In this document: piece after piece, positions 5,908 through 23,572 of the stretch
Layout of the letters: the number at the start of each line of letters is the position of its first letter
Numbering within the stretch: the first letter of the stretch is position 1
IMG/VR virus record: IMGVR_UViG_3300030333_005156
Coordinates: 1-23,676 of that record
Origin: a virus
DNA: 23,676 nt
Direction: 5' to 3' (one strand)
Position numbers and translations under genes: made by a program
Notes under the pieces: generated by a model
Told to the model about the DNA's origin: nothing
The model's input: the letters and a program-made list of their open reading frames with translations, nothing else
Databases searched by the model: none

Positions 5908-5964
5908 TAGGTTTCCGAATGATATTATATATTCAACTATAAATATAAAACATACCAATTAATA

Positions 5965-6011: not shown

Positions 6012-6197
6012 ATGAATAAGAAGAAAAGATATAACTTTACCTTAGATGAAGATTTGGTAAATTGGTTAAAATTATATTGTAAAGAAAATAGAGTCTCTCT
6101 ATCCTCTTTTATAAACCAACAAATCCATAAAGTTTACAGAGAAAATTCTGTTAGACCATTAAATGTTATGCGTTCATCCTCTGGCAAATCTAACTGA
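6012..6197 (+). CDS. Small ribbon-helix-helix (CopG/Arc-like) DNA-binding protein
   Basis: This is the only convincing plus-strand gene here. The chosen ATG (MNKKKRYNFTLDEDLVNWLK) has AGGA six bases upstream at 6002-6005; an in-frame GTG at 5985 lacks such a site. The 61-aa product follows the RHH pattern: a short beta strand (KRYNFTLDE), helix 1 (DLVNWLKLYCKEN), a turn (RVSLS) and helix 2 (SFINQQIHKVYRE). Such proteins dimerise and insert the paired strands into the DNA major groove. The 3' end overlaps the tail of the Mre11-Rad50 gene by 24 bp in convergent orientation, so the two transcripts are partly antisense. It probably regulates its own or the fibre promoter at the adjacent palindrome. 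No antitoxin partner is seen next to it. Confidence 0.68.
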   Translation: MNKKKRYNFTLDEDLVNWLKLYCKENRVSLSSFINQQIHKVYRENSVRPLNVMRSSSGKSN

Positions 6198-9100
6198 TGA
6201 ACTTCCATTTACCTTTTTAATTTCTAATAAGGTATCCACGAAATCTCTCATTGTTTCAATGTGAGAAACAACTAATGAGAATTGAAACTCTGATTTCAGA
6301 TATTGGAATAATTGAGCAACTGAATTTAGATTGTCTGAATCCATTGTTCCCCAACCCTCATCTATAGCAAGGAAGTTACTTCGTGGTAAATTACTAACAT
6401 TCATTAAACCAACTCTTATTGCAAGAGAACTAATGAATCGTTCCATACCACTTGATAGTTCTAAAGGCCATACTCTATCGTCATCATATACAATATGAGT
6501 ATCAATAACTTTACCATCCATATTAAAAATAATACTGAAGTCAACTATTTGAGCCAAGATATCATTTACTGCTCCCTCTACGGTAGGTAATGATTTACTA
6601 ATTAAATCATAAGGAACACCATCTCGTTTGATGGCCTCTAATAAGAATTGATATGCTTGGTGTGAATCTTCAAGTTCTTCTACTTTATTAATGTTATCAT
6701 TAATTTGTTTTTCTTTGGTTTTCAATACTTGAATCTCACCATGTAAATTTGTAATTTTAGAATTAAGTGTATCTAATTGATAATCTAAATCATCACTATT
6801 ATTTTGTAATTTATCAATCTCAACTTCTACTTGTTGATTAAATATAACATTTTGTTCTTGTGACTTGGCTCTTTCCATATCACTTTTAATTAAATTAAAT
6901 TGTGTAGTTATATTCTTTTGTTTTTCTTTTGTGATGTTTATATTAGATGTTATGTTATCTTGGTATCTTTGTTTTTCATTTAACTTACCCTCTAACTCAT
7001 CTAAATCTTTTTTGAATGCACGAACCTTGAACATCTTTTGGATTTCATCTTCCATATTTTGTTTCTTTTGAACATAATCTTGTGCAAGTAATTTATCTTT
7101 CTCAAGGTTCTTTTTAGTTTCTATCGCATCTAATGTAAATGGATTACTCATACAATGGTCACAATCCTCATCATAAGTTAAATCACCAAGTTTTTCAATT
7201 TTATCTAATTTACTACGAACCTCTATTTTCAATTTATCAATTTCTACTTGAAATAAATCTCTTTCTTCTTCAAGTTTTTCTAATTTGTAATAATTCTCTT
7301 CTACACCATCTTGTTGATAGATAACAATCTTATTCTCAATCTCTTTTACTGCCCTATCAAAGTCATATTGTTCTGTTTCATATTCTGAAAGTTTATGCTT
7401 GACATTTTCAGATAATGTTGTTAACTTAGTATGTTGTTCTTCCAACTCTTCTATACTTTTCAAACTATCATCTACAGGTTTTAATCTTTTAGTTTGGTTT
7501 TTGATTTCATTTAAAACCCGTTTTACTTGTTTCTTTAAATCACCCTCATCATTTTTAAACTCTGTCTCTTTTCCTTCAAGTAAAATTAAATCATCAGTAA
7601 TTTGTGCCAACTCTTTATCATAATCTGCCTTTTTAAAATCATTTAAAAGTGTATTCACTTCCTTAATATCTTCTGCAGCCTGTTGATATAATGTATCAAA
7701 TATTTTCAATCCCATAAACTGAGATAATAACTCTTTTCGTTCTTTTTGAGTTTTATTGATAAATACGGTTGAATCATTTTGACTACTCATACTTGTTAAA
7801 ATGAAATCATCAAATCCACCAATAACTCTTTGTATATTTTTCTGTGTAGTTCGTCTTTGGTCACCATTTAAACTTACATGTTCACCAGTTTCATCTACCA
7901 TCCAAAAATCTATATCTACTTTAACATGTCCTGTCCTTAAATTCTTCTTACCTCGTTTCTCAATATAATAATCTATACCATCAATCTCAAAATTAACTTT
8001 ACAATGTAAATTAGTTTTTGATTTATTAATAATATTATCTGCTTTATATGCACGAGAACTAACATCAAATAAATTAAAACATAATGCATCCAACAATGCA
8101 GATTTACCACTTGCATTTGGAGCAAATAATCCTATCATCCCATTTAGTTTTGTGAAATCAACTACATTATCCTCACCATAACTAAATAAATTACTGAATT
8201 CAAATTGTTTTAACTTCCAACTAATGTTTCTTTGTATATCTGCTTCAGGTATAACTTGATTCAATTCTTTTAATATATCTTTAATCTTAATCATAGTATC
8301 ATCATCAACAATATAATTGTTTTTTAAATACTCACTAACTAAATCATATTGATAATCAGGATTATTTACATCACCAATGTTAATTTTCTTATCACGAATT
8401 TTTTCTGATGACAATCCATCTACTCTCGTGATAACACTTTCTTGTACTTTACATTTCTTCTGTAATTGTGTCATCAACTTTTTTAATTGTGATGGTTTAG
8501 TATTACTTACACGAACACGAATTCTTGGTTTATTTGGTAAGTTTGGTAGTTCAGGTAATTTACCATTATCTATATTAATTGTATAATAACCATAATCATT
8601 ATGTATTTCTATATATTCAGATTTTCTATTTGGAACATCCCATAACAAATAACCTTTACCAATATCTTCTCCATGATTTTGTTGAACCAATGAACCACAA
8701 TAAGATATAGTTTCTTCTTTATTCAAATGTTGTCGTTTGTGAATATCACCAAGTAATCCTAAATCATAACCTTTGAACATACTCATCTTTATTTTACTTG
8801 GTAGTTTAAATCCTAAATCAGTTTCACTTCTATCTACGGTTCCATGATACAATACAACTTTAGTTCTATCACCTGGAACATCTTTTGCTTTAATATAATC
8901 TTTCTCTTTATCCCAAACATCCCATACAATAAAGTCTGTATCTGCACAAGTGTAAATACCAGTTCTCTTTAGATAGTGTAGATTAGGATGATTTAAATTT
9001 TCTACGATTGGTGTTAATACATCTAATCTATTTAAATTGTTTAGATTACAATCATGATTACCTGCGATAATAATCAATGGACAAATATCTGCTAAGTTCT

Positions 9101-9335
9101 TGAATAGACGAGATAATTGGTCTACTAACTCAGGTGACATTTCTGTTTTACTATGTGCAATATCACCACCAATATATGAAACAGCATTATTAGGATTTTT
9201 CTTTACTTCTTTGTAAAGTCCTTCAAATACTTGTTCATATTCTTTATGTCGTTTTAAATTTCTTATTTGTATATCACTTATGTGATGTATGTGTTTAAGT
9301 TTCCTAAATGGAACCTTTATTTTATCTGTTACCAT
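6174..9335 (-). CDS. Single-chain Mre11-Rad50 (SbcD-SbcC / gp47-gp46) recombination nuclease
   Basis: A 1053-aa protein joins both halves of the Mre11-Rad50 nuclease. The N-terminal part is a calcineurin-type phosphoesterase: D21-I-Q (motif I, with Gln where Mre11 has His), G57-D58, GNHD at 92-95, H164 and GDIH at 196-199. From about residue 372 a Rad50/SbcC ATPase follows: Walker A APNASGKS at 405-412, a long coiled coil at about 545-900 interrupted by a zinc-hook CDHC at 725-728, an ABC signature LSSGME at 960-965, Walker B LAIDEGWG at 989-996 and H-loop H1025. In T4 these are two genes (47 and 46) that process DNA ends for recombination-dependent replication. There is no internal start or stop at the junction. 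The start overlaps the primase stop by 14 nt. Confidence 0.88.
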   Translation of the reverse strand: MVTDKIKVPFRKLKHIHHISDIQIRNLKRHKEYEQVFEGLYKEVKKNPNNAVSYIGGDIAHSKTEMSPELVDQLSRLFKNLADICPLIIIAGNHDCNLNNLNRLDVLTPIVENLNHPNLHYLKRTGIYTCADTDFIVWDVWDKEKDYIKAKDVPGDRTKVVLYHGTVDRSETDLGFKLPSKIKMSMFKGYDLGLLGDIHKRQHLNKEETISYCGSLVQQNHGEDIGKGYLLWDVPNRKSEYIEIHNDYGYYTINIDNGKLPELPNLPNKPRIRVRVSNTKPSQLKKLMTQLQKKCKVQESVITRVDGLSSEKIRDKKINIGDVNNPDYQYDLVSEYLKNNYIVDDDTMIKIKDILKELNQVIPEADIQRNISWKLKQFEFSNLFSYGEDNVVDFTKLNGMIGLFAPNASGKSALLDALCFNLFDVSSRAYKADNIINKSKTNLHCKVNFEIDGIDYYIEKRGKKNLRTGHVKVDIDFWMVDETGEHVSLNGDQRRTTQKNIQRVIGGFDDFILTSMSSQNDSTVFINKTQKERKELLSQFMGLKIFDTLYQQAAEDIKEVNTLLNDFKKADYDKELAQITDDLILLEGKETEFKNDEGDLKKQVKRVLNEIKNQTKRLKPVDDSLKSIEELEEQHTKLTTLSENVKHKLSEYETEQYDFDRAVKEIENKIVIYQQDGVEENYYKLEKLEEERDLFQVEIDKLKIEVRSKLDKIEKLGDLTYDEDCDHCMSNPFTLDAIETKKNLEKDKLLAQDYVQKKQNMEDEIQKMFKVRAFKKDLDELEGKLNEKQRYQDNITSNINITKEKQKNITTQFNLIKSDMERAKSQEQNVIFNQQVEVEIDKLQNNSDDLDYQLDTLNSKITNLHGEIQVLKTKEKQINDNINKVEELEDSHQAYQFLLEAIKRDGVPYDLISKSLPTVEGAVNDILAQIVDFSIIFNMDGKVIDTHIVYDDDRVWPLELSSGMERFISSLAIRVGLMNVSNLPRSNFLAIDEGWGTMDSDNLNSVAQLFQYLKSEFQFSLVVSHIETMRDFVDTLLEIKKVNGSSSVRFARG

Positions 9336-11498: not shown

Positions 11499-11894
11499 TT
11501 AGTATTTATTTTTCCATTTTTTACGATATTCTTGTTTTGCCCAATTCTCAGCTTTCTTTTCCCACTTATTATCGTGATATCTTCTGAATCCTTGGAAGTC
11601 TGCCATGGCATCTGCTTGTGCATATTTTTTTAGAAATTTTTTCAATCCATATTTCTTTACCATATCTGCATGATGTATTTCATGTAATACTGATATGATA
11701 AATTCTTTGACACTTGGGTAACTTCTTCGTAACTTAATAGTATCTGTATCCCAATCGTAATCACCCTCAACACCTTTACTTGCAGTCATTTTTACTTTAG
11801 ATTTTAATCCATAGTATTTAACTAATTCAGTAGCAATAAATTGGAAGTCTGCTCTTTCCATCATCAAATGTATATTAGTTAGTTTAGGTATCAT
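11499..11894 (-). CDS. HExxH zinc metallopeptidase-like protein
   Basis: The 131-aa protein carries the zinc-peptidase motif HEIHH at residues 71-75 (H71, E72, H75), within a helix (EFIISVLHEIHHADMVKKYG). A second helix near the C-terminus (KWEKKAENWAKQEY) could give the third ligand, with E115 as candidate. The size and layout recall small SprT/WLM/ImmA-type proteins found in phages. No signal peptide is present, so it is probably cytoplasmic. Its ATG overlaps the PAP2 stop as ATGA, which implies translational coupling. Its target is unknown; virion maturation or host-protein cleavage are both possible. Confidence 0.6.
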   Translation of the reverse strand: MIPKLTNIHLMMERADFQFIATELVKYYGLKSKVKMTASKGVEGDYDWDTDTIKLRRSYPSVKEFIISVLHEIHHADMVKKYGLKKFLKKYAQADAMADFQGFRRYHDNKWEKKAENWAKQEYRKKWKNKY

Positions 11895-12511
11895 TTCATA
11901 CCTTTAAATAAAGCTTTAGCTACTTTCTTACCATATTCTTTATCACTTGGATAATGTGCTTTTGCAATAATTCTTGATTCTGCAATATCATTTCCTAAAC
12001 CAAGATATTCATTAGAGTTTCGTGAGTCAATAGAAGAAAGATACTCACCTAATAAATATCCTTGAATTGCATGTCCACTTGGAAACGATGGTGTTTTCAT
12101 ACTATCTAATTGTGTTCCATTTAAATCAATATCATAAAACTTTGCAATCTGATATGGTCTTGGTCTATTGTATTTATATTTTAATTCCATTATAAACTTA
12201 ATACTCTCTCTAACAATTTTTTTAAGTTGTTTTTTTGTTATGTTAGTATTATGTTTCTCTACAAGATTCATAAATGCTTTAACAACATCATCATTTGATT
12301 CAACAAATTCAGGATTAGGTTCAATACTTGCAAGATATTTAATTTCTTTTAAAGTTAAAGAAGAATCATTTTCTGGTGGTAGTTTTCTTGGTAAAACTAT
12401 ATTCTCATCAAATATCTCTAATTTACGAGCCATTCTCTTTTTATCTTTTGGTCTAATACTTTCAGTATAAACCATATTTCTTAAATTTAATAATTCTTTT
12501 AACTTAATCAT
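11891..12511 (-). CDS. PAP2-family acid phosphatase-like protein
   Basis: All three PAP2/haloperoxidase signatures are present (numbering from the ATG at 12511): K111-x6-R118-P119 in KYKYNRPRP, PSGH at 144-147, and S-R180-x5-H186-x3-D190 in SRIIAKAHYPSD. The family removes phosphate from phosphatidic acid, undecaprenyl pyrophosphate or small substrates. No clear transmembrane helices are seen, so it is a soluble member, unlike lipid phosphatases of the BacA/PgpB kind. I chose ATG 12511, which overlaps the upstream stop as ATGA; the frame extends to a TTG at 12535 but that start lies inside the poly-Lys tail of the upstream gene. It is coupled on its other side to the metallopeptidase. Intact catalytic residues suggest an active enzyme; the substrate is unknown. 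Confidence 0.78.
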   Translation of the reverse strand: MIKLKELLNLRNMVYTESIRPKDKKRMARKLEIFDENIVLPRKLPPENDSSLTLKEIKYLASIEPNPEFVESNDDVVKAFMNLVEKHNTNITKKQLKKIVRESIKFIMELKYKYNRPRPYQIAKFYDIDLNGTQLDSMKTPSFPSGHAIQGYLLGEYLSSIDSRNSNEYLGLGNDIAESRIIAKAHYPSDKEYGKKVAKALFKGMK

Positions 12512-12834
12512 TTTTTCTTCTTCTTCTTTCCCCAACTAAGTGGATTTATATTAAATTCCTTTTCATAAAATTTAACTCGTTCTTCAAGTTGTTCTCTTTC
12601 TTCTGCCTCTTTTGCAGAATGTCTTGCTACAATTTCAGTTATCTGAGTATTTGCCTCAGTAAAATCTTTTTCCAATTCAATTATTCTCATTTCTATTCTG
12701 TAATAAGAATAAATTAACATTCCCACTAAACTCAATATTTGAACCAGCCATTTCAAATTCAAACTAACGACCATATTGTCGCCTATCACCGTACCTTTAT
12801 ATGACCGGGCAGTGTCCTCTTTACCTATAGACAT
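12508..12834 (-). CDS. Inner-membrane coiled-coil protein with poly-Lys tail
   Basis: This 108-aa protein has a polar N-terminus of about 27 residues, one membrane helix (28-46, LKWLVQILSLVGMLIYSYY), then an acidic coiled coil (47-93) and a C-terminal run of six lysines. AGGAGT precedes the ATG within the end of the 47-aa gene. The layout matches the protein at 16567-16956 (polar start, one helix, then a coil beginning with an I-x-x-LE pattern), so the two may be related. Small membrane coiled-coil proteins are common in phage late regions; a role in lysis timing or envelope association is a guess. Confidence 0.6.
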   Translation of the reverse strand: MSIGKEDTARSYKGTVIGDNMVVSLNLKWLVQILSLVGMLIYSYYRIEMRIIELEKDFTEANTQITEIVARHSAKEAEEREQLEERVKFYEKEFNINPLSWGKKKKKK

Positions 12835-13246: not shown

Positions 13247-13999
13247 TTATCTCCAATCCCATATTTTAAATGCATTATAAGTTACACCAAATCCTACAAC
13301 AGGCTCTGTTAATCCTGTTACTTGGTCGTATGTTATACCAATAAACGGCCCTACACTTATTTGGTTCCTCGGTGGTTTAATTTTAAATGGACTACTTTTT
13401 CTACCATTCAACCTTAAACCATCAAATTGTATTGTAGGAACTTCTGCATAATACTCACCTTTTACTTCACCCTCAACAATCTTAGGTTCTCCGATTTCTA
13501 AACTACCATCAAAACCTAATTCAGTTTCAGAATCCACAATACTATCATTAACTATTGCAACACCAGTTCTACCAAATATTCTAAGGTAGGAACTTTGTGT
13601 ACCAAACTCCTTTTCAAATGGAACTACACCAGCACCACTTGAATAAGAGTTGTTATTATCATAAATAGATACTTTTTGAGAAAGTTGTTTTTTGATAGTA
13701 TCAAGTTGAATCTCAAAGTTATCCATCCTATTTTTTAATTCTTTGTTTTCTATACCACGAGTTTTATCATGATGTGATAGGTTTTTTAATAGTTTATTAT
13801 TTTGTTCTGTAAGAATCGCTACAGAATCTTGTAACTCTGTAATCATTACATCTTGTCTTGCAGAATCGTCTCTCAAGAATTCCATTTCTTCTTGAGCATA
13901 ATAATAACGAACTCCTACCACACATAATATAAAAAGTATGTTGAGAAAACCACCAATGACCCACTCTCTTCTTTTTTGTGGCCAATGTTTTAATAACAT
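13247..13999 (-). CDS. Transenvelope coiled-coil protein, spanin-like
   Basis: This 250-aa protein has a basic N-terminus, a membrane helix at about 13-34 (WVIGGFLNILFILCVVGVRY), a coiled coil at 35-112, a low-complexity linker and a beta-rich C-terminal half ending VGPFIGITYD...EPVVGFGVTYNAFKIWDWR. The type II topology and long periplasmic coil recall i-spanins. The ending recalls small proteins near holin genes in Bacteroidota phages that close with a 'GP-x-G...GVGVSY' beta hairpin. It might bridge inner and outer membranes in the last lysis step. AAGGAGTTGAT precedes the ATG. An alternative is a surface or adhesion protein; there is no lipobox. Confidence 0.5.
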   Translation of the reverse strand: MLLKHWPQKRREWVIGGFLNILFILCVVGVRYYYAQEEMEFLRDDSARQDVMITELQDSVAILTEQNNKLLKNLSHHDKTRGIENKELKNRMDNFEIQLDTIKKQLSQKVSIYDNNNSYSSGAGVVPFEKEFGTQSSYLRIFGRTGVAIVNDSIVDSETELGFDGSLEIGEPKIVEGEVKGEYYAEVPTIQFDGLRLNGRKSSPFKIKPPRNQISVGPFIGITYDQVTGLTEPVVGFGVTYNAFKIWDWR

Positions 14000-14011: not shown

Positions 14012-14539
14012 TTAATCAATATTTTTTATGGCGTCTTGGATAGCTTTTCTAATTGAACCACCCAATTCAGATTTACCAAACTCAACATCTTCTTGAATTT
14101 GTAAACCAGCTGCTGATACCGTAGTGGTTGTTTCACCGATACCACGATAACTTTTCTGAGTACCCTCTTTGTTCTCAACAAGGTTAACCACTAATCTAAC
14201 TTCAGTAGATTGGTTTCTTCTATTGAATATACCTGCTATACTAAATGCCTCATTTGGTTTACCAATATAAAGAACTTCTACATTCGCAGTAAAATCAGCA
14301 TTATCATCTTCTACCAATACATATCTTGTATCTTGTAATTGTTCTTCAAGTAGTTGTTTTATACCTAAAGTTACTCTATCATCTGCAACACCTACAGATT
14401 CATCAACTTTAACAAATTGTGATATTCTTAATGTAGGGTAATTTATATCCTCACCAACAACGGTTGGTTGTGGTATAGTTTGTCCACTAATAATAGTGAA
14501 TATACAAAATCCTAAAAGAAATCTCATTGCTAATCTCAT
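14012..14539 (-). CDS. Secreted CsgG-fold-like periplasmic protein
   Basis: A signal peptide (MRLAMRFLLGFCIFTIISG) ends before Q20, and AGGAGAAG precedes the first ATG at 14539. The mature part (about 155 aa) follows the CsgG/LpoB-type order: strand PTLRISQFV, a helix plus strand of the form GIKQLLEEQLQDTRYVLVE (58-76), strands ANVEVLYIG and TEVRLVVNLVEN, a YRGIGE turn, and a last helix LGGSIRKAIQDAIKNI. CsgG forms the outer-membrane curlin export pore. This copy lacks a lipobox Cys, so it would be a soluble periplasmic relative or partner of the lipoprotein at 15538-16176. The fold assignment is from pattern, not alignment. Confidence 0.5.
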   Translation of the reverse strand: MRLAMRFLLGFCIFTIISGQTIPQPTVVGEDINYPTLRISQFVKVDESVGVADDRVTLGIKQLLEEQLQDTRYVLVEDDNADFTANVEVLYIGKPNEAFSIAGIFNRRNQSTEVRLVVNLVENKEGTQKSYRGIGETTTTVSAAGLQIQEDVEFGKSELGGSIRKAIQDAIKNID

Positions 14540-14548
14540 TTTCTTCTC

Positions 14549-15532
14549 CTAAAAGTATGTTCCGAACAATATAGAGTAAGTTGTTGTTCTTTCTCCATAA
14601 TCGTTCACAACCGTGTTATATCCCATACTGAATCCTAAATTAACTTTAAATGCCTGACTCAATTGAAAATCAAATGATAAAGTTGGCATGAGCATAATAG
14701 GACTCTGTAATAATAAATATTGTTTACCTGAATTTAAACCCTCATAATATCTTAATAATGTATATGAAACATAATTTGTAAATGTCATTTTAAAACTACC
14801 AAATTCTACAGGTGTCCTTAATCCATATAATACTGAAAAATTACCAAACCCATTGTCACTAACACTACCATATGATGCAGTTAACACAATAACTTCTGCA
14901 TTTTTCTTTACAAGAGATTTTGCATATGATGATGATACTAACCAATCACTACCCTCAAATGTTTTAAAGAAAACACCTGATGCACTTATTACTTGGTTTT
15001 GTTTTTTTGCGAGAAAGTTTACTCCTTGACCATACGATGCATTAAATCTACTTAAATCATCTGTAAAACTAAGATTACCATCGTATCTTGATTTACCATC
15101 AAAACTTTCTCGTGTGTAAATACTATTAAATGATGTTACCCAACTACTATCTACGGCTGGTGATGATTTTATCCCATAATTAACTTGAGAAACTTCATTA
15201 CTCACATCACTTTTATTAAATTGTTCTGTTGCATTACTAGCCAAAACCGATGAAAGTATTTCTTCTGCAACTCTAACTGCACAAGGAAACAAATCTTCAA
15301 AGTCATTATAGACTCTTTCTGCCCAAGATTCTAACTCTCCATTTAATACTTGTTGTAATGTGAAAAATTTTGATTTATTATAGTATGTAACATAGAATCC
15401 ACCATCTTGATTCTGTATATTGTAATTGTCTCTAACCAGAATTTGATTGCATGGGTCAATATAACTATATAAAAAGCCTTGGGCAGAGAGACTACTACAT
15501 AATAATAATATGTATAAAACTCTCTGCCACAT
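14549..15532 (-). CDS. Candidate outer-membrane beta-barrel protein with N-terminal two-Cys domain
   Basis: A signal peptide ends SLSA before Q18. The mature 310-aa protein starts with a compact domain of about 80 residues holding C28 (YSYIDPCNQ), a YVTYYNKSKFFT strand pair and C84 (DLFPCAV), which could form a disulphide. From about 130 it becomes a chain of alternating polar and hydrophobic strands (aromatic and glycine rich) and ends in YSILFGTYF, with the terminal aromatic typical of outer-membrane barrels. It lies between two CsgG-like genes with gaps under 10 nt, so the three probably work together at the outer membrane. I do not recognise a named family. Confidence 0.55.
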   Translation of the reverse strand: MWQRVLYILLLCSSLSAQGFLYSYIDPCNQILVRDNYNIQNQDGGFYVTYYNKSKFFTLQQVLNGELESWAERVYNDFEDLFPCAVRVAEEILSSVLASNATEQFNKSDVSNEVSQVNYGIKSSPAVDSSWVTSFNSIYTRESFDGKSRYDGNLSFTDDLSRFNASYGQGVNFLAKKQNQVISASGVFFKTFEGSDWLVSSSYAKSLVKKNAEVIVLTASYGSVSDNGFGNFSVLYGLRTPVEFGSFKMTFTNYVSYTLLRYYEGLNSGKQYLLLQSPIMLMPTLSFDFQLSQAFKVNLGFSMGYNTVVNDYGERTTTYSILFGTYF

Positions 15533-15537
15533 TCATT

Positions 15538-16176
15538 CTACCAACCTCTTCTGTCAATTGCCTTAATAACATTAACAACCGCAGTTTCCATAGCTTTGTT
15601 AGATGCAGAACTTAAAGAACTTTGATTCCATTCCATATTAGGATTTTTTAGAAATCCTTGACCTATGGTGGATGCTCTTCCTTGTCCACTACCAACAACA
15701 TACTGAGTATTCTCATTATTGATTACTTTAACTTGGATACCAACAATAGTTTCGTTTATTGTTTGAACTTTTCCACCTTTGATATCTTCTTTTAAGTTAA
15801 CAGCGAAATCATAAATAGTTACATACGCAGTGTATTTGGTTTTCTCTATTTTAGCTTCGTTGGCTTTCAAATCATTTAACATAGATAATTGAATATCTCT
15901 ATCCGCTTCTACGAGATTAAATCTTCCAATGAAAGAAATAACATTTGCAAGTTCTTGATTTAACCCAAATGCAACTCGTTTATCTCCAAGTTCTGGATAT
16001 CTTTCTTCAAGTTCTTTATTAAACTTAACATCCAAAATCTTTAGATTATCTACTTTTGTGATTTCCACTTCATCCAATGATTTTTGCTTTTCATACTCAC
16101 CAACATATTGTTCGGTTGATACTGATGCAGCACATCCCATTAAAACCATTAAACTAAGTAGTAATAGTTTTTTCAT
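15538..16176 (-). CDS. CsgG-like outer-membrane lipoprotein
   Basis: The start at 16176 (MKKLLLLSLMVLMGC) gives a lipoprotein signal with Cys15 as the lipidated residue; the frame extends upstream to an ATG at 16254 inside the previous gene, which I reject. It follows the upstream stop by one base, with AGAGGAAAA as ribosome site. The 212-aa protein shows CsgG/HfaB-like order: helix ALGLNQELANVI-type (70-80), strand FNLVEADR (86-93, like the 'VVER' strand of CsgG), strand YTAYVTIYDFAVN, a long strand pair NETIVGIQVKVINNENTQYVVGSG that would be the barrel-proximal part, and a final helix SSASNKAMETAVVNVIKAI. CsgG oligomers form secretion pores. No curlin subunit gene is visible here. Confidence 0.6.
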   Translation of the reverse strand: MKKLLLLSLMVLMGCAASVSTEQYVGEYEKQKSLDEVEITKVDNLKILDVKFNKELEERYPELGDKRVAFGLNQELANVISFIGRFNLVEADRDIQLSMLNDLKANEAKIEKTKYTAYVTIYDFAVNLKEDIKGGKVQTINETIVGIQVKVINNENTQYVVGSGQGRASTIGQGFLKNPNMEWNQSSLSSASNKAMETAVVNVIKAIDRRGW

Positions 16177-16566: not shown

Positions 16567-16956
16567 TTATTTAAAATCTGCCAATGGGTCTTTTAATAAT
16601 TTCTCTAATCTTGAGATTTCACCTTTGAGTTTATCAATCTCATTCTGTAGTTTAATTATATCCCCATCATAAGACTTCACTTTTGGTGTTTTTAAACCAT
16701 CTACTTTTTCTCGTAGATACTTTAATTCTTCATCAATATTGTTAAAGTTATTGGTTACAATTTCAATATCACTTGCTTCTGCAAATCCTTGAACTACTTC
16801 TTCCAATGAGTCAATACGGCCAGTAAAACTATACCAACCAGCAATAACGGTGGAAAGAAAAGTAACAATAGCAACAATATTCTGTATTGAGATTCCAAAC
16901 TTTTTTCCTTTAACATCTTCTAATAGATTTTCTGCGTCTACTACATCTTTTGCCAT
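16567..16956 (-). CDS. Inner-membrane coiled-coil protein
   Basis: This 129-aa protein has a polar N-terminus (MAKDVVDAENLLEDVKGKKF), one membrane helix at about 25-43 (QNIVAIVTFLSTVIAGWYSF), then a long coil to the C-terminus with a short KTPKVKSYDG break near 90-98. TAGGAGATAAGTT precedes the ATG. With the 12508-12834 protein it shares the order of a cytoplasmic tail, one helix and a coil that begins RIDSLEE / RIIELEK, so the two may be distant paralogues. It sits between the T9SS-like genes and the CsgG-like genes and could anchor an envelope complex; this is a guess. Confidence 0.6.
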   Translation of the reverse strand: MAKDVVDAENLLEDVKGKKFGISIQNIVAIVTFLSTVIAGWYSFTGRIDSLEEVVQGFAEASDIEIVTNNFNNIDEELKYLREKVDGLKTPKVKSYDGDIIKLQNEIDKLKGEISRLEKLLKDPLADFK

Positions 16957-16973
16957 AACTTATCTCCTATTTA

Positions 16974-17030
16974 TTAATTGCAACAACCACATTCACAATT
17001 ATCACAATCACATTGTTTATAATTACACAT
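16974..17030 (-). CDS. 18-aa cysteine-rich microprotein
   Basis: An ATG one base after the PorV-like stop (TAATATG) opens 18 codons: MCNYKQCDCDNCECGCCN, then TAA. Seven of 18 residues are Cys, spaced as C-x4-C-x-C-x2-C-x-C-x-CC with acidic residues between, a pattern like metallothionein fragments. GGAG lies eight bases upstream, inside the end of the PorV-like gene. The next gene follows 17 nt later. The exact fit into the operon and the strong site favour a real gene. Metal binding is inferred from composition; no signal peptide is present. Confidence 0.55.
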   Translation of the reverse strand: MCNYKQCDCDNCECGCCN

Positions 17031-17031
17031 A

Positions 17032-17901
17032 TTATATCTCCACATTTAATGTTAATAATAGTGTTTCTTTTAAAGGATGAGTTTCACTACCATTTAGCAT
17101 ACCCACTCCTATTTTATATTTATCAATTTTAAAATCTAATCCTACTGATGAATAATTTAATTGGTGTGTTACATCATTATAGTATCCTGCATTCACCCAT
17201 AACATATTTTTCCAATTATAAGAAACACCTTGTCCATGAGTATGATAATTCTCATACAAGTTCCATTGATTATAAATAGTCCATTTATTTTTAATTGGAA
17301 TATTAAAACCAACATTAACTGAAGCTGGTATTTCAGGTTCATACCCATTTATTTTAGTCACTACACCAATATTAGATACCATAAAATCTAAATTAATTAT
17401 TCCATATAATTTATGAAAATGTAATCCTGTATCAAATAACATACCTTCAGTTTTTTCAGTATGTAATGAGTGACCAACTACTTTACCTCTAAATCCTATA
17501 GAGATACTATCAATTTTTTCACCTTTATATAGTAAGTTAGTTCCCCAACCAACAGATGCAACTATTGAATTTGGTGTAAAAGTACCACTAATAATACCTG
17601 CATCATCTGCAATATTTTGTGCACCATAATCAAAGTATAAAAGTGAGTAATCTAATTTACCTCTTTTTACTTGAACATAATTAAATCCCATATCATCAAC
17701 AATATTACCCAACCATTTTACATTAGTAAAACTTACTTCAGTTGTAGTATCTGTATTTAATAAGTTCATTGCAGGATTTCTAAATGCAAGTGATTGATTA
17801 CCAAGAATTGTTTCACTCGTAGTAGGTGATATTGTTAGAACACGATTTACTTGTCCAAACAAAGTTCCTATCATTAATAATCCTAATAATATTTTTTTCA
17901 T
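17032..17901 (-). CDS. PorV/PorQ-like outer-membrane beta-barrel protein (T9SS-associated family)
   Basis: This 289-aa protein has a signal peptide (MKKILLGLLMIGTLFG, then Q17) and the sequence pattern of the PorV/PorQ family: an early SLAFRNPAMNLL segment with N42-P43-A44, then VSFTNVKWLGNIVDDMGF, a YSLLYFDYG strand, and repeated glycine-rich strands (IVASVGWGTNLLY, ISIGFRGKV, GMLFDTGLHF, INLDFMVSNIG, ASVNVGFNIP, LWVNAGYYN, YKIGVGML) to the end. It is somewhat shorter than typical PorV. PorV binds the C-terminal signal of T9SS cargo at the outer membrane and delivers it for surface attachment. The gene is coupled by ATGA to the 36-aa membrane microprotein, which is coupled to the T9SS cargo gene. 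That makes it a likely dedicated partner of the cargo. Confidence 0.7.
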   Translation of the reverse strand: MKKILLGLLMIGTLFGQVNRVLTISPTTSETILGNQSLAFRNPAMNLLNTDTTTEVSFTNVKWLGNIVDDMGFNYVQVKRGKLDYSLLYFDYGAQNIADDAGIISGTFTPNSIVASVGWGTNLLYKGEKIDSISIGFRGKVVGHSLHTEKTEGMLFDTGLHFHKLYGIINLDFMVSNIGVVTKINGYEPEIPASVNVGFNIPIKNKWTIYNQWNLYENYHTHGQGVSYNWKNMLWVNAGYYNDVTHQLNYSSVGLDFKIDKYKIGVGMLNGSETHPLKETLLLTLNVEI

Positions 17902-18008
17902 TTTTTATCCTCTATTTTTTCGGAAATCCAAATTATACCTTTAATTGTAAAATACATCGCAGGTAACATAAATATTAATATTCCGAAAAATGTTATTACT
18001 TCTAACAT
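17898..18008 (-). CDS. 36-aa single-helix membrane microprotein
   Basis: Between the cargo gene and the PorV-like gene, an ATG overlapping the cargo stop by one base (TAATG at 18008) opens 36 codons. The reading frame ends in TGA that overlaps the next ATG (ATGA at 17898-17901). The product is one hydrophobic helix (VITFFGILIFMLPAMYFTIK) followed by an amphipathic, charged end (SEKIEDKK). Perfect fit with both neighbours strongly supports a real gene. It may be an inner-membrane adaptor; the family is unknown. Confidence 0.68.
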   Translation of the reverse strand: MLEVITFFGILIFMLPAMYFTIKGIIWISEKIEDKK

Positions 18009-20758
18009 TATTTAACTACCGTAAATTTATTAGCTTTTATTTTTTTATCTGTTTCAAGAACAAATATATAAACACCTGGTTCTAATGTTTGGTGATTTTC
18101 ATACACACTTACTTCAGGTAACCAAACACTTGGTTCATTTGTAAAATCAAATGTATGTATTCCTTGACCAACAACTTCATCTAATAAAGTTCCAACATAT
18201 TGTCCATTAGAATTCAGTATGTAAAGTTTTACATGTTCTTCTGTATCTATGAAGAATTGAAATTTTGTATTATCTTTAAATGGATTTGGATAATTGTAAG
18301 TAAGTTCATCATCTTCTGGTTCTCCACCACCGAATGCCCAATACTTATTCCATACCAAGACTTTACCATCTTGTCTTTCCATTAGTAAGTCATCACCATT
18401 TGGATTACCTGCTGCATATTTACCAACAAATCTTATAGGAGCCTCAGTCCATTCAGATTCAGGGAAGTCTGCTCTAAACATTAATTTTAATGCATTCATT
18501 TCATCACTAATCCAATAAGTTGATGGTGCATTACCTGGTGAATAATCTAAACCACCAAATGACAATCTTTGCCATCCTAAGTCATCTACCTCACCAACAT
18601 TTACATAAGTAAACCACGGTCCTGGTAAGTTTCCAGTCTTCATATCAATGAATTCTAATTCATTAACATTATACTCAACCTCAAATTCAAACCCAGCAAT
18701 ATTAACATCTACTGGTGTAAGTTTTAATGGAACTTCAATCATCTCACCACTCTGAACCCTTACGGTTGAATCTGCTGGGAATGATAATAATACATCATGA
18801 TTTGTTAACAATGATTTCATTGACATACGATTATTTGTTGGTGGTGAAGTTCTATTCCAAGTTGCTGGTGGGTTACCATTACCCCATCTATAAAATGTAT
18901 CACCATTTAAAGATTGTGCAACTGCTGTTCCACTTGAATCAACTAATGTTCCAGTTAAATTCATATCACCTGTAAAATAATATGCCAAACTATCAATTGT
19001 ATAATCAGGATTTGCATCATTACCATATGTTGAACTACCAGCACCTAAATCAACAATTACGGTATCTAAACCTGTGATAACTTCATCCATCATATCAGGA
19101 TTTGTAATCTCAATATATCCAAAATTTAATTCAGAATCTTCTTGGTCTAAATCATCATCATAGAAAATACTAAATTCTCTTTTTTGATTACGAGTTTCTT
19201 CATTAAATGTTTGATAGTAATTTCTACTTACAGATTGATTGTTTTCTTTTAAATTATCTGTCGTTGAAAAGTCTTCATAAGAGTTACCATTAAAGTGTGT
19301 ATAATTAGTAAACACTCCACTTGTGTAAGCCCATAAGAAATATGTATCATTTAATTGAAATACATCATCACCATCAATATCACCAATGAAATATGAAGTT
19401 GGTGATAGAGTATCTATTTGTGCAATCTCTTTAAATTTACTACCTTGGAAATTAAATGACTTAATTGCATCATTTATATTAGTGATTGCATCTCTATCTA
19501 ATTCATATTGGTCGTGTGTTTCTATATCATCTGCAGCATCTGGTGGCCAGAATGAAATAGTATATCTATTGTTTCGTGGTAATTGAATATTATAATATCC
19601 TTTATCATCTGTATAAGTCCAATCATAATAAGATACATTTAGATATCCACGATTTACGGTTTCACCCTCTGGTGCAGAAGAGAATTTAGGTAATGCATAC
19701 ATACCAGTAACACCCTCTGTAGTTTCTGTTTTCTTATGATAATAAAAAGTATCTGTATTATCACCAATAACATCATCAGATAAATCTTCATCTGTAGTGT
19801 TTGCAGTATTTGATACTTCTTCTAAGTTTTGCCAATTACTAACACCATTTGCATTTTCATCTAAATCAAACTTAACTTTCCAATAAGGATATTTGTTTCT
19901 TGTAAAAGTTTCACCCTCATCTTGGTCACCATCTTGGTTTGTATCTACCCATTCACCAATATATCTATAGAAACCTTCAACATCAACAAGTTTTGGATGA
20001 AGTGTAATATCACCTCTTGCCCCACCATTGTCTGTTTCTTCAGTTCCCCAATTTCCATCTATATAGACTTTATAATCTAATAGATAATCATCAGATACAT
20101 AAGTATAGTATCCTGTTCCACCTTGATAAAGTGTTGCGATTTTAAAAGATTTAGGTTCAAAGTTATCTACCACATCTTCTATTTTAAATTCTAATTTTAA
20201 TATTTGAGTTTCATTTCCGTTCCCATTACCGAATTCCATTTCATTCACATCATGAGAAACAGCAGTTATTCTCAACCAATCATAACGATTGTTACTTGTT
20301 GATATTTCATTATCTTCATCATCTAATGCATCATTATATCCAATGTCATCATATTGAACGACTTCATAAGAATAATCTGCATTTGCATTTTCATCACCCT
20401 CAGTATATTGTGCTAAATGTGAACCAACCAATACTTTAGTGTCGTCATCATCCCAATCAATTAAATCATTATCAAATAATAAATCTAATCTAAATGTTGA
20501 AATATCAGCACCATTATCATCAAGTGTAACTTCCATTGTGAGAACACTATCTCTCCATGTATCAAAGTTATTATTATATAGTGCGACTGCACTTGTATCG
20601 GAAGCAAGGAATTTATCCAAATCAATCGTTTCTGATTCTTTCCACCAAAATTTTGGTGTATCGTATGTACCTGTCTGTTTGATTCTAATTATCGGATTTT
20701 GTGCGACGGCAGTCCCAATAAACCCTAATAATAAGAGCCAATTTAAAAACCTCTTCAT
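18008..20758 (-). CDS. Secreted cohesin-like protein with T9SS type A C-terminal sorting domain
   Basis: This 916-aa protein has a signal peptide (MKRFLNWLLLLGFIGTAVA, Q20 follows) and a C-terminal domain from about 820: NYPNPF at 822-827, strands KFQFFIDTEEHVKLYILNSN, the GQYVGTLLDEVVGQGIHTF turn region, LEPGVYIFVL and a final KFTVVK. This is the T9SS type A sorting signature, which is recognised at the outer membrane and removed when cargo is attached to the surface. Residues about 660-800 resemble a cohesin domain (GEMIEVPLKL...AGFEFEVEYN...LKLMFRAD), and 70-200 may be another. A dockerin/EF-hand-like calcium loop, GDIDGDDVFQLND, lies at 459-471; Asp/Glu-rich loops (NQDGDQDEGE) are frequent. 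It is the first gene of the coupled run. GGAAAA precedes the ATG. No catalytic domain is recognised. Confidence 0.78.
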   Translation of the reverse strand: MKRFLNWLLLLGFIGTAVAQNPIIRIKQTGTYDTPKFWWKESETIDLDKFLASDTSAVALYNNNFDTWRDSVLTMEVTLDDNGADISTFRLDLLFDNDLIDWDDDDTKVLVGSHLAQYTEGDENANADYSYEVVQYDDIGYNDALDDEDNEISTSNNRYDWLRITAVSHDVNEMEFGNGNGNETQILKLEFKIEDVVDNFEPKSFKIATLYQGGTGYYTYVSDDYLLDYKVYIDGNWGTEETDNGGARGDITLHPKLVDVEGFYRYIGEWVDTNQDGDQDEGETFTRNKYPYWKVKFDLDENANGVSNWQNLEEVSNTANTTDEDLSDDVIGDNTDTFYYHKKTETTEGVTGMYALPKFSSAPEGETVNRGYLNVSYYDWTYTDDKGYYNIQLPRNNRYTISFWPPDAADDIETHDQYELDRDAITNINDAIKSFNFQGSKFKEIAQIDTLSPTSYFIGDIDGDDVFQLNDTYFLWAYTSGVFTNYTHFNGNSYEDFSTTDNLKENNQSVSRNYYQTFNEETRNQKREFSIFYDDDLDQEDSELNFGYIEITNPDMMDEVITGLDTVIVDLGAGSSTYGNDANPDYTIDSLAYYFTGDMNLTGTLVDSSGTAVAQSLNGDTFYRWGNGNPPATWNRTSPPTNNRMSMKSLLTNHDVLLSFPADSTVRVQSGEMIEVPLKLTPVDVNIAGFEFEVEYNVNELEFIDMKTGNLPGPWFTYVNVGEVDDLGWQRLSFGGLDYSPGNAPSTYWISDEMNALKLMFRADFPESEWTEAPIRFVGKYAAGNPNGDDLLMERQDGKVLVWNKYWAFGGGEPEDDELTYNYPNPFKDNTKFQFFIDTEEHVKLYILNSNGQYVGTLLDEVVGQGIHTFDFTNEPSVWLPEVSVYENHQTLEPGVYIFVLETDKKIKANKFTVVK

Positions 20759-20863: not shown

Positions 20864-21877
20864 TTAGACATCAAAGCGAACAATAAATGTAGTATCAAGT
20901 TCCTTACTTAGTTTAACTGGTTTTGCTAACTTCCCTACTACCAACAAGTTATCCTTATTATCATACAACCCAATCTCTGAAACATATGGGTAGAAATATG
21001 AACTTGTTACGAATCCATGTTGGTCTTCTGTTGCTTCATATGATGTTTTAAAACTTCCTGTTCCTTCAATGCCTGGTTGGTCACCTGGTGGGAAAAATAG
21101 GTGAACATTTTGAGTACCCTCTTTCAACATTATACTTCCACTTCTTCCTGCAGTTAAACTAATATTCATACTTTTATTCATTTTGTTTGCGGGAACCATA
21201 CATTCATAAAAATATTCATAATGTCTATGTGTTGCTTTATATTTTATATCAAAACCTGTTCCAAATCCAACATCTCCATATGAACCTGAATTATTTACAA
21301 CTGCTATTCCATGTTCATAGAAAATATTACCTACTTGAGAACCACTTCCATTGGCCAATACACCTTGACCTTGTGTAAAAGAACTTGATTTATATGCTGC
21401 AAAACTTGATGAATATGCGAAGTCATATAAATTACCATCACCATCATCTCTAATATCAAATGTTGTACCTCTTGAAGTATCACTTAGTTCAAATGTCAAT
21501 GGTTTAATTTGTTCACCAAACACATCTTTTGCAATACTAAATACAGATGCACTTGTATGTAATTCTCGTTTGATTAATGTTGTGTCGGATTGACCAAAAG
21601 TATAGAGTGGATTTTCAATTTCATCACCATCCATCTTTGTTTTATAGTAAAGTTTATTTATGGTATGCCAAGTTGGTAATGCATAATAATTTGTATTTAT
21701 GGAACCTGATGTGATTGTTGTAACCATATCAGAACCAGAATCATAATTATAAAGTGACTTTGAAACTGCTCTTACTGCAAAGAAACCACTTCCACTATCG
21801 TTATTTGTGAAACTAAAAGTTTTATTGGTTTCAAATCTCTTGATGGAAACATTTTTTCTATCAATGTCTATGAACAT
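20864..21877 (-). CDS. Virion structural protein, paralogue A
   Basis: The 337-aa product has no signal peptide and is rich in Ser, Gly, Thr and aromatic residues. Its last 45 residues (VSEIGLYDNKDNLLVVGKLAKPVKLS, then TTFIVRFDV) match the ending of the next gene's product (VGLYNENNDLLAVAKLSKPV, then IIKVKLDF). I recall such endings from structural proteins of T4-like marine phages. TAGGAAA precedes the ATG, ten bases after the upstream stop. It is likely a tail, baseplate or neck protein; the exact place is unknown. Confidence 0.6.
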   Translation of the reverse strand: MFIDIDRKNVSIKRFETNKTFSFTNNDSGSGFFAVRAVSKSLYNYDSGSDMVTTITSGSINTNYYALPTWHTINKLYYKTKMDGDEIENPLYTFGQSDTTLIKRELHTSASVFSIAKDVFGEQIKPLTFELSDTSRGTTFDIRDDGDGNLYDFAYSSSFAAYKSSSFTQGQGVLANGSGSQVGNIFYEHGIAVVNNSGSYGDVGFGTGFDIKYKATHRHYEYFYECMVPANKMNKSMNISLTAGRSGSIMLKEGTQNVHLFFPPGDQPGIEGTGSFKTSYEATEDQHGFVTSSYFYPYVSEIGLYDNKDNLLVVGKLAKPVKLSKELDTTFIVRFDV

Positions 21878-21886
21878 GAAAGTTTC

Positions 21887-22921
21887 CTAAAAATCAAGTT
21901 TGACTTTTATAATAGCTTCCCTTGAATATGATTTTAATACAGGTTTACTTAACTTAGCGACTGCCAATAAATCATTGTTTTCATTATAGAGACCAACTTG
22001 TGTAATAAAAGTTTTAGGGTCTTTAAAGAAAGTTCCTTGTGTGAAATCCCCATTTGTATCTGAAAATGTAGGATTATTACTAAAGTTAAACTTTTGGTTA
22101 TTTACTCTACAAAAATAATTTGTAGAACTAATTTCTTCTTCTCTACGAACTTGGAATTTTGAACCAGTAGCTACTGATAAAAAGAAGTTATGTGGATTAT
22201 CACCATAAGTATCCGAAGTTCTACTTGCCTTCAAAGAACCACTTGCTTCCAATACTGATGGATGTAGTAATATAATTCCTAAGTCAGGATAGAATAAACC
22301 ATATGCTCCACCAGGTTGATTTGCTGCAGTTGTATTTGTTACTGCAGTTCCTGTGGCGATTGAACCACTAATAATATTAAATACTCTACCACCCTCATTT
22401 ACGGTTGGATTTGTAGTAGCACCACTATCATCAATTAATTTCAAAGTAGATGTAGCTCCACTTCCACTTAAGTGAAGTTCCCAATTACCTGGGTCAATCT
22501 TTTCTCTTTGTCTTGCTCTTTGGAATGTTACAAAATAAAAATCATCACTTGCACTTTCGGCTCCTGTGAATGTAAATTTAGAAGTTTCTGCTGGTAAGAT
22601 AACATTTGCAAATTGTCTATACAATGCAGCAGTTTGTCTACCACCTGTATTTAATTTAGTTGTGTTACCTGCTGAACCACTTCCCCAATAATGTGCATAT
22701 CCTAATGAGAATTGTATCTCCGCCGTATCTACGGTAGCACTACCTGCAGTTGGGTCTTGATGATAAACATCAATATAGGAACCTGTTGAAGCACCTTGTG
22801 CCGATTGACTATAAAATGATGTCATCGTTCCACTTCCACCACTAAAGATACCACTTGATACTACGGTTCTTTGGTTTTTTATTACATCATTATCTTGGTC
22901 AAATGTTTGAAAAGTTGCCAT
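21887..22921 (-). CDS. Virion structural protein, paralogue B
   Basis: This 344-aa protein (MATFQTFDQDNDVIKNQRTV) is Gly/Ser/Thr rich, has no signal peptide, and shares with its neighbour both length and the C-terminal LYN-x-N-x-x-LLAVAKLSKP block. The middle includes a predicted beta-rich region with repeated short Ser-Gly-Ser stretches. AGGAGTAATAAATA precedes the ATG. The pair most likely arose by tandem duplication and assembles side by side in the virion. The function is otherwise unknown. Confidence 0.62.
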   Translation of the reverse strand: MATFQTFDQDNDVIKNQRTVVSSGIFSGGSGTMTSFYSQSAQGASTGSYIDVYHQDPTAGSATVDTAEIQFSLGYAHYWGSGSAGNTTKLNTGGRQTAALYRQFANVILPAETSKFTFTGAESASDDFYFVTFQRARQREKIDPGNWELHLSGSGATSTLKLIDDSGATTNPTVNEGGRVFNIISGSIATGTAVTNTTAANQPGGAYGLFYPDLGIILLHPSVLEASGSLKASRTSDTYGDNPHNFFLSVATGSKFQVRREEEISSTNYFCRVNNQKFNFSNNPTFSDTNGDFTQGTFFKDPKTFITQVGLYNENNDLLAVAKLSKPVLKSYSREAIIKVKLDF

Positions 22922-22933
22922 TATTTATTACTC

Positions 22934-23572
22934 CTAATTAGTTGTTCCACTTGCTTGAGTTACTATACTCATATTACCTATAGCTCCAGTTCCAAGTCCT
23001 TGAATGGTTAAGTTTGTAGTTATTTGGGAATTTAAATTTTTACCAATAAGTCTTGCTTCTTTTGCATTTATAGTAACAGACTTTGTTGAATCTGTTTGTG
23101 AAGTAAATGTTACTTGTTGTTGTGTTTCTGGGTCCACACCTGCAGTTTCTACCAGTAATTCAGCTGCATCACTATTATGTATGGTGAATCTATATCCCAC
23201 TGCATCATCTAAAGTTGAATTATTTGTTATTGGTGAAATGACTTGTTGTCCACCTGTCGGTAATGTAACGGTTGGTGCTGGTAAAGTCATTTTTGGTAAT
23301 TTGTTTGTATTTTTACCTAAAGTTATTAACTTAAACCTCATTACCTGATTCTCATCTACGAATGATTCTAATAAAGGCATGTTTTCAATAACTGCTCCAT
23401 AATAAGAAGAACCATTAGGATGTGATACATCCCAAAGATTATAATCAATCTCATCATCTGCTAATGCAAATTTTGTTATTTCAAATTCGTTTTGCCCTCT
23501 TGCCAACAATTCACGACCTTTTTTGGTAAGGACGGCATCTACGGTTATACTTGTATTATCTAAAAATCCCAT
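22934..23572 (-). CDS. Virion structural protein with conserved 'MGFLDNTSITVDAVLTKKGRELL' type N-terminus
   Basis: The 212-aa protein begins with a segment (LDNTSITVDAVLTKKGREL, then EFEITKFALADDEIDYNLWD) that I recall at the start of structural proteins of T4-like marine phages, next to paralogous genes like the two downstream. The C-terminal half (about 100-212) is a Thr/Val/Gln-rich beta domain (QQVTFTSQTDSTKSVTINAKEA) that looks like an immunoglobulin-type strand array. CAGGAGTAAAAACA precedes the ATG. It is probably a tail or baseplate-associated protein; the specific position is unknown. Confidence 0.65.
   Translation of the reverse strand: MGFLDNTSITVDAVLTKKGRELLARGQNEFEITKFALADDEIDYNLWDVSHPNGSSYYGAVIENMPLLESFVDENQVMRFKLITLGKNTNKLPKMTLPAPTVTLPTGGQQVISPITNNSTLDDAVGYRFTIHNSDAAELLVETAGVDPETQQQVTFTSQTDSTKSVTINAKEARLIGKNLNSQITTNLTIQGLGTGAIGNMSIVTQASGTTN

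Follow-up and report, generated by a model that had tools for sequence, protein, structure and literature searches.

A candidate phage-borne type IX secretion cargo encoded beside a PorV-type barrel that may serve as its shuttle

We describe a gene pair in a stretch of 23,676 nucleotides from the IMG/VR virus record IMGVR_UViG_3300030333_005156 (positions 1 to 23,676 of that 48,414 bp virus sequence; the window, from here on, means this whole stretch). One gene encodes a protein of 916 amino acids (aa) that ends in an address label of the type IX secretion system (T9SS), and the other a 289-aa outer-membrane barrel of the PorV/PorQ superfamily. Based on gene content, domains, fold, conservation, selection and conserved docking loops, we propose, with a probability that we put at about 0.6, that this is a phage-borne type IX cargo with its own PorV-type shuttle, used via the SprA translocon of the host. 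The cargo with its T9SS label stands beside a relative of PorV, the host protein that recognizes this label, and thus the infecting phages probably display a protein of their own on the outside of the infected cell.

The minus strand holds all the substantial genes of the window, including the cargo, the barrel and the envelope genes discussed below. The cargo gene (18008-20758) and the barrel gene (17032-17901) are linked by an open reading frame (ORF) on the same strand (17898-18008) for a 36-aa membrane protein with one helix. The stop of the cargo overlaps the start of the linking ORF as TAATG (18010-18006), and the TGA of the linking ORF overlaps the ATG of the barrel as ATGA. These coordinates, lengths and couplings are as described in an earlier note on this DNA, made from the letters alone. 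Among relatives the linking ORF is kept, missing or substituted. On the 5′ side of the cargo there are three conserved genes (20864-23572), then a gene for a 1571-aa protein, and then baseplate-wedge genes, which together place the locus among the tail genes of a phage of the contractile-tail type.

The sorting signal is the first piece of evidence. The T9SS type A C-terminal sorting domain (CTD; 18011-18307, aa 818-916) contains NYPNPF ... LEPGVYIF ... KFTVVK, and the TIGR04183 model matches aa 823-914, at the extreme C-terminus, with 28.5 bits against a curated cut-off of 23. The same model is matched in all 33 distinct cargos (E ≤ 0.01), and it is above its cut-off in 20 of 20 phage records, each with exactly one T9SS cargo. 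The motifs NYPNPF, GQ, LxPGxYxF and KFT(V/I) are conserved and K911 is invariant; the tail of the domain is retained in 63/63 complete cargos examined, with an exact YPNP in 60. The phage CTD carries an insertion that makes it about 17 residues longer than the CTDs of the candidate host group compared. The cargo is a predicted T9SS type A substrate.

At its other end, the cargo has a signal peptide (20702-20758, aa 1-19, with cleavage before the invariant Q20), which we judge from a hydrophobic N-terminus and an A-x-A ahead of the glutamine. So the signal peptide and type A ending that the earlier note had recognized are both present. An invariant glutamine directly follows the signal peptide in the barrel as well (Q17), which is what the Bacteroidetes Q-rule predicts for the residue after cleavage (PMC10653852). 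The suggestion of a cohesin-like protein is also borne out: a cohesin domain (18359-18802, about aa 653-800) matches PF00963 with 28.6 bits (gathering cut-off 24.1) and is detected in 32 of the 33 members, and Foldseek matches it to cohesin structures (1g1k, TMt 0.77) using a low-confidence model, the full-length cargo model being weak (mean pLDDT 51). Further upstream in the protein there is an acidic loop of EF-hand/dockerin type (19346-19384, GDIDGDDVFQLND, aa 459-471), and the pattern GD.DGD....LND is kept in 39 of 41 distinct cargos. We see a single EF-type loop per protein, and the Pfam dockerin models have no match in the 33 members.

The barrel is the second piece. It matches the PorV_fam model NF033709 at E 4e-21 (75.9 bits), and the models for PorP/SprF, the type B shuttle, do not match it at E ≤ 1 in NCBIfam. 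In a profile search of the PDB, the PorV of Flavobacterium johnsoniae is the sole sequence relative of the phage barrels (E 2.6e-15). The predicted structure (pLDDT 82, pTM 0.80) has a FadL-like fold, and its best structural matches are again PorV (8gl6_F, TMq 0.72; 6h3i_F, TMq 0.71). In a tree of 32 phage barrels together with bacterial PorV, PorQ and other paralogs, the phage barrels form one clade (support 100/99) on the PorV side, and PorQ falls on the opposite side; the exact root of the phage clade is uncertain (long branches). The barrel retains an NPA motif, a WLGNIVDDM hairpin, a YF.YG loop and a C-terminal PL..T strand, and the hairpin is nearly identical in bacterial PorV and absent in PorQ. 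By these comparisons the barrel is a member of the PorV/PorQ superfamily and an ortholog of neither protein. Thus "PorV/PorQ-like", as the earlier note put it, stands at the level of the superfamily, and does not stand if taken as orthology to either. Immediately 3′ of the barrel, at 16974-17030, there is an 18-aa cysteine-rich ORF (MCNYKQCDCDNCECGCCN), and a similar 25-aa cysteine-rich ORF occupies the same place in the relative L007.

How would such a barrel hold its cargo? In the RemZ-bound translocon, the main chain of PorV at Asn87 and Phe115 holds a lysine, the only surface residue that is conserved among type A CTDs (PMC10994853). Taking the residue numbering of our PorV/phage profile alignment as equal to the one in that paper, Asn87 aligns with phage D69, beside the invariant D70, and Phe115 aligns with the invariant Y92. 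Both belong to conserved motifs, WLxNIVDDM (invariant D70) and YF[DN]YGxQ (invariant Y92, G93 and Q95), and both are loop tips in the model, D69 between strands 55-62 and 72-80, and Y92 after strand 83-91. The match to the lysine contact is positional, from the alignment. Because the Asn87 and Phe115 positions fall on these conserved phage loops, the most conserved surface of the barrel would be the place where PorV holds cargo. On the cargo side, a profile search of the phage CTD against the PDB found no CTD structure, so the conserved lysine is not directly mappable; the invariant K911 is a candidate counterpart.

The pair is common in viral contigs. Scanning for the cargo returns 50 contigs with a plain pattern, and at least 142 viral stretches matching with an alignment. 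The earlier note had advised looking for the same pair in other viral contigs, and we observe the barrel 3′ of the cargo in all 53 loci with room for it (at least 1,100 bp beyond the cargo; some contigs are near-duplicates), with a gap of 0-526 bp, irrespective of the small ORFs in between. For pairs of sequences with dS > 0.1, the ratio of nonsynonymous to synonymous substitution rates (dN/dS) is 0.04-0.21, cargo and barrel alike. As judged from these sequences, a chance origin of the cargo and barrel features is excluded, because they are conserved in dozens of independent viral contigs. There are no relatives of the cargo or the barrel among INPHARED isolates, and degenerate patterns, which are narrow, did not find any bacterial-type PorV in viral contigs.

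From these observations we infer late expression, use of the host SprA, the pairing of cargo and barrel, and a benefit. Late in infection, the cell would make the cargo and the barrel along with the tail genes. Sec would export both, and their signal peptides would be cut ahead of the glutamine. The β-barrel assembly machinery (BAM) would then insert the barrel into the outer membrane, where it would occupy the place of PorV at the lateral gate of the host SprA. There its loops would bind the CTD of the cargo within the SprA pore, and the two would exit laterally into the outer membrane, leaving the cohesin-bearing ectodomain displayed on the infected cell, or released. The most likely benefit would be an altered surface of the infected cell, either by hiding the receptors of doomed cells and debris, or by sticking cells together. 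The roles put forward in the earlier note, superinfection exclusion, aggregation or adhesion, are candidates at this point.

Several results weigh against a dedicated shuttle. The 75.9 bits of the window barrel are below the curated PorV_fam cut-off of 90, which is exceeded in 22 of the 48 relatives' records, and the barrel is far under the equivalog cut-offs for PorV (NF033710, 39.9 vs. 250 bits) and PorQ (NF033711, 57.5 vs. 220 bits). In the alignment, it lacks the longest extracellular loop of PorV, NKLLVPTPP...FNDAPGGFSEE, a loop that would be extracellular if strands are counted from the periplasmic loop 193-199 of PMC10994853; therefore the docking of the barrel in SprA may differ from that of PorV. 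The co-variation between CTD and barrel is strong (r 0.86), but the barrel co-varies equally with an unrelated neighbour in the module (r 0.93), so pair-specific co-evolution is not shown, and in partial Mantel tests it is indistinguishable from linkage. In sliding windows, the C-terminal third of the cargo mostly follows the barrel (most windows have r about 0.7-0.85, and one has 0.54), and the cargo body follows it less (r 0.34-0.61), a pattern that suggests recombination in the cargo body and does not amount to proof of cargo-barrel matching. As an observation in its own right, the cargo body stays about 60% identical even where the phage barrels drop to 28% identity and the backbones differ, and the C-terminal third, unlike the body, diverges along with the barrel; this also suggests recombination inside the cargo gene.

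Host PorV could by itself carry the cargo, and the strongest rival builds on this: the phage barrel would then anchor the exported cargo at the surface, act as a decoy or blocker of the phage receptor, or plug SprA and so stop host secretion. The missing loop, the scores under the PorV and PorQ cut-offs and the lack of detectable pair-specific co-evolution all agree with it, and a PorV and roughly 41 T9SS cargos are already present in the likely host group. The co-variation results do not discriminate between this rival and a dedicated shuttle. We still consider it unlikely, given the strict adjacency of cargo and barrel over two phage backbones (see below), and given that the barrel conserves exactly the loops by which PorV contacts the lysine of the CTD. 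A more ambitious version of the dedicated-shuttle proposal is that the phages run an orthogonal substrate channel within the host secretion system, made of a re-engineered PorV-type shuttle with a shortened loop and a matching CTD with an insertion, within a module of seven genes that is transferable and would reprogram the surface of the infected cell. We advance it tentatively, with slightly less than even confidence.

The other five genes of that module lie downstream. They encode a 129-aa protein of the inner membrane that has a single helix and, in the periplasm, a coiled coil (16567-16956), and that is in all complete loci; a 212-aa lipoprotein with a GCAAS lipobox (15538-16176); a 327-aa exported protein (14549-15532), for which the family searches return no match; a 175-aa exported protein (14012-14539); and a 250-aa protein with an N-terminal helix and a coiled coil (13247-13999). 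By hhalign (95%), the 175-aa protein is a remote paralog of the lipoprotein; both are envelope-like and of no named family. For the lipoprotein we considered CsgG, with a weak hhalign probability of 23-37%; the identity is unsupported for either paralog, and the lipoprotein has no Pfam or PDB support for it.

In three divergent contigs (L024, L027 and L028), the genes 5′ of the cargo are unrelated to those of the window phage wherever a comparison is possible; those of L028 encode, among others, a portal, an endolysin and a holin. The barrel still follows the cargo where the contig extends to it. L024 and its relative L055 keep the whole set: the 129-aa coiled-coil protein, the lipoprotein, and the 327-aa, 175-aa and 250-aa proteins. 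The same gene set occurs in different backbones, and therefore the pair belongs to a module that is mobile between phage backbones. This is the strongest comparative sign that the pair functions as a unit.

Could the whole module be a machine for envelope disruption and lysis, in which T9SS display is merely one step? The downstream coiled-coil proteins have weak spanin-like matches, and in the second backbone the module is immediately 3′ of the holin gene. But matches to spanins as weak as these are typical of short coiled coils in general, the second backbone already has its own endolysin and holin, and no known lysis part is a surface protein of 900 aa with a cohesin domain, all of which makes this improbable.

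In 45 of 48 loci the cargo comes directly 3′ of conserved genes of the tail region, as it would if the 916-aa protein were a part of the virion, a tail adhesin whose end merely resembles a sorting domain. The complete members, however, have a clear signal peptide, and Sec-exported virion proteins of tailed phages would be very unusual. With TIGR04183 found in every one of the 33 cargos and a PorV-family neighbour invariably present, we regard a virion role as very improbable.

As for origin, among 395 Bacteroidota genomes we find matches to the CTD only, except for one phage contig in the Flavobacteriales metagenome-assembled genome (MAG) NAT55; the cargo body is absent from the other 394. This MAG has SprA (2384 bits), PorV (433 bits), 41 CTD matches over the cut-off and a similar GC content, and its cargo copy sits on a 9.2-kb contig with the phage gene order. 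The binning of that contig gives a weak hint that the host is a marine member of the Flavobacteriales. We take these viruses to be widespread marine phages of Bacteroidota-type hosts. Marinimicrobia were considered as hosts because of their many PorV paralogs, and this gained no further support. The 2.2-Mb Marinimicrobia MAG of L120 (G053) has 17 PorV-family matches in a single genome, a hint that some bacteria may likewise operate many PorV-type shuttles. The two families are otherwise found in bacteria, and one copy is in a MAG. That the pair consists of bacterial genes, brought in by a chimeric assembly or by contigs wrongly classed as viral, has next to no probability, because identical junctions to phage genes repeat in dozens of contigs, with baseplate-wedge genes upstream of the pair, a cargo body missing from bacterial genomes and the phage's own gene order around the MAG copy. 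The phage origin that the earlier note assumed is thus upheld, and none of the three outcomes it had named as fatal occurred: the CTD matches a T9SS model, the barrel falls in the PorV/PorQ superfamily, and the contig is not a chimera.

The rest of the window includes other features. A 1053-aa protein (6174-9335) appears as a fusion of SbcC/SbcD-like nuclease parts (Metallophos and AAA_23), and its gene adjoins a primase and a PDDEXK/RusA-like resolvase. A PAP2-family phosphatase (11891-12535) and a small predicted metallopeptidase-like protein (11499-11894) are retained in many relatives, outside the envelope module. At 1-5958, an ORF of at least 1986 aa runs off the window edge, and has no family match.

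The earlier note knew of no precedent for such a system in phages. That holds in part: phage-encoded T9SS cargo has already been reported (PMC7468147, PMC6949934), and for a phage-encoded PorV-type protein or cargo-shuttle pair we find no report in the open-access papers searched, a scope outside which lie most subscription papers and preprints. Phage T9SS cargo has hitherto been read as a passenger on host machinery. If our proposal is true, a conserved PorV-type partner means that part of the secretion apparatus itself comes from the virus, which then decides what protein is put on the outside of the infected cell. A single PorV serves many unlike type A signals, and the pair offers natural variants of both partners, the shuttle being shortened and the signal enlarged, for probing how T9SS shuttles recognize and release cargo.

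The closest known systems are SprB-SprF and the other pairs of a type B cargo with a PorP/SprF shuttle in Flavobacterium johnsoniae (PMC12618676, PMC9143113), in which a large surface protein with a T9SS signal is encoded beside its own FadL-like shuttle. Cognate pairs of this sort are proven for type B signals, where the pairing decides both export and final location, and we propose that the phage pair works likewise; it differs in having a type A signal (TIGR04183) and a PorV-type barrel, in viral genes. With the PorV of the T9SS translocon (6h3i, 8gl6; PMC10994853), the phage barrel shares superfamily, fold, N-terminal NPA and WLxNIVDDM-type motifs, the loops of the CTD-lysine contact and the C-terminal strand, and it differs in being about 100 aa shorter, without the NKLLVP...FNDAPGGFSEE loop, in a separate clade, and with one dedicated cargo per phage record. 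Cryophage encodes cargo proteins with a T9SS CTD (PMC7468147), and T9SS sorting domains occur beside or within crAss-BACON ORFs (PMC6949934); as in our case, a phage-encoded cargo is presumed to use the host machinery. The Cryophage cargos are variable enzymes or a PA14 protein, and the portions of that report describing them mention no shuttle partner, in contrast to the conserved cohesin-type cargo and conserved partner found here. Finally, the CsgG/CsgF operons of pelagimyophages and Melnitz (PMC9004378) also show marine phages with a host-type outer-membrane export part whose benefit is unknown, but there the channel is that of the type VIII (curli) system, and here it is the T9SS.

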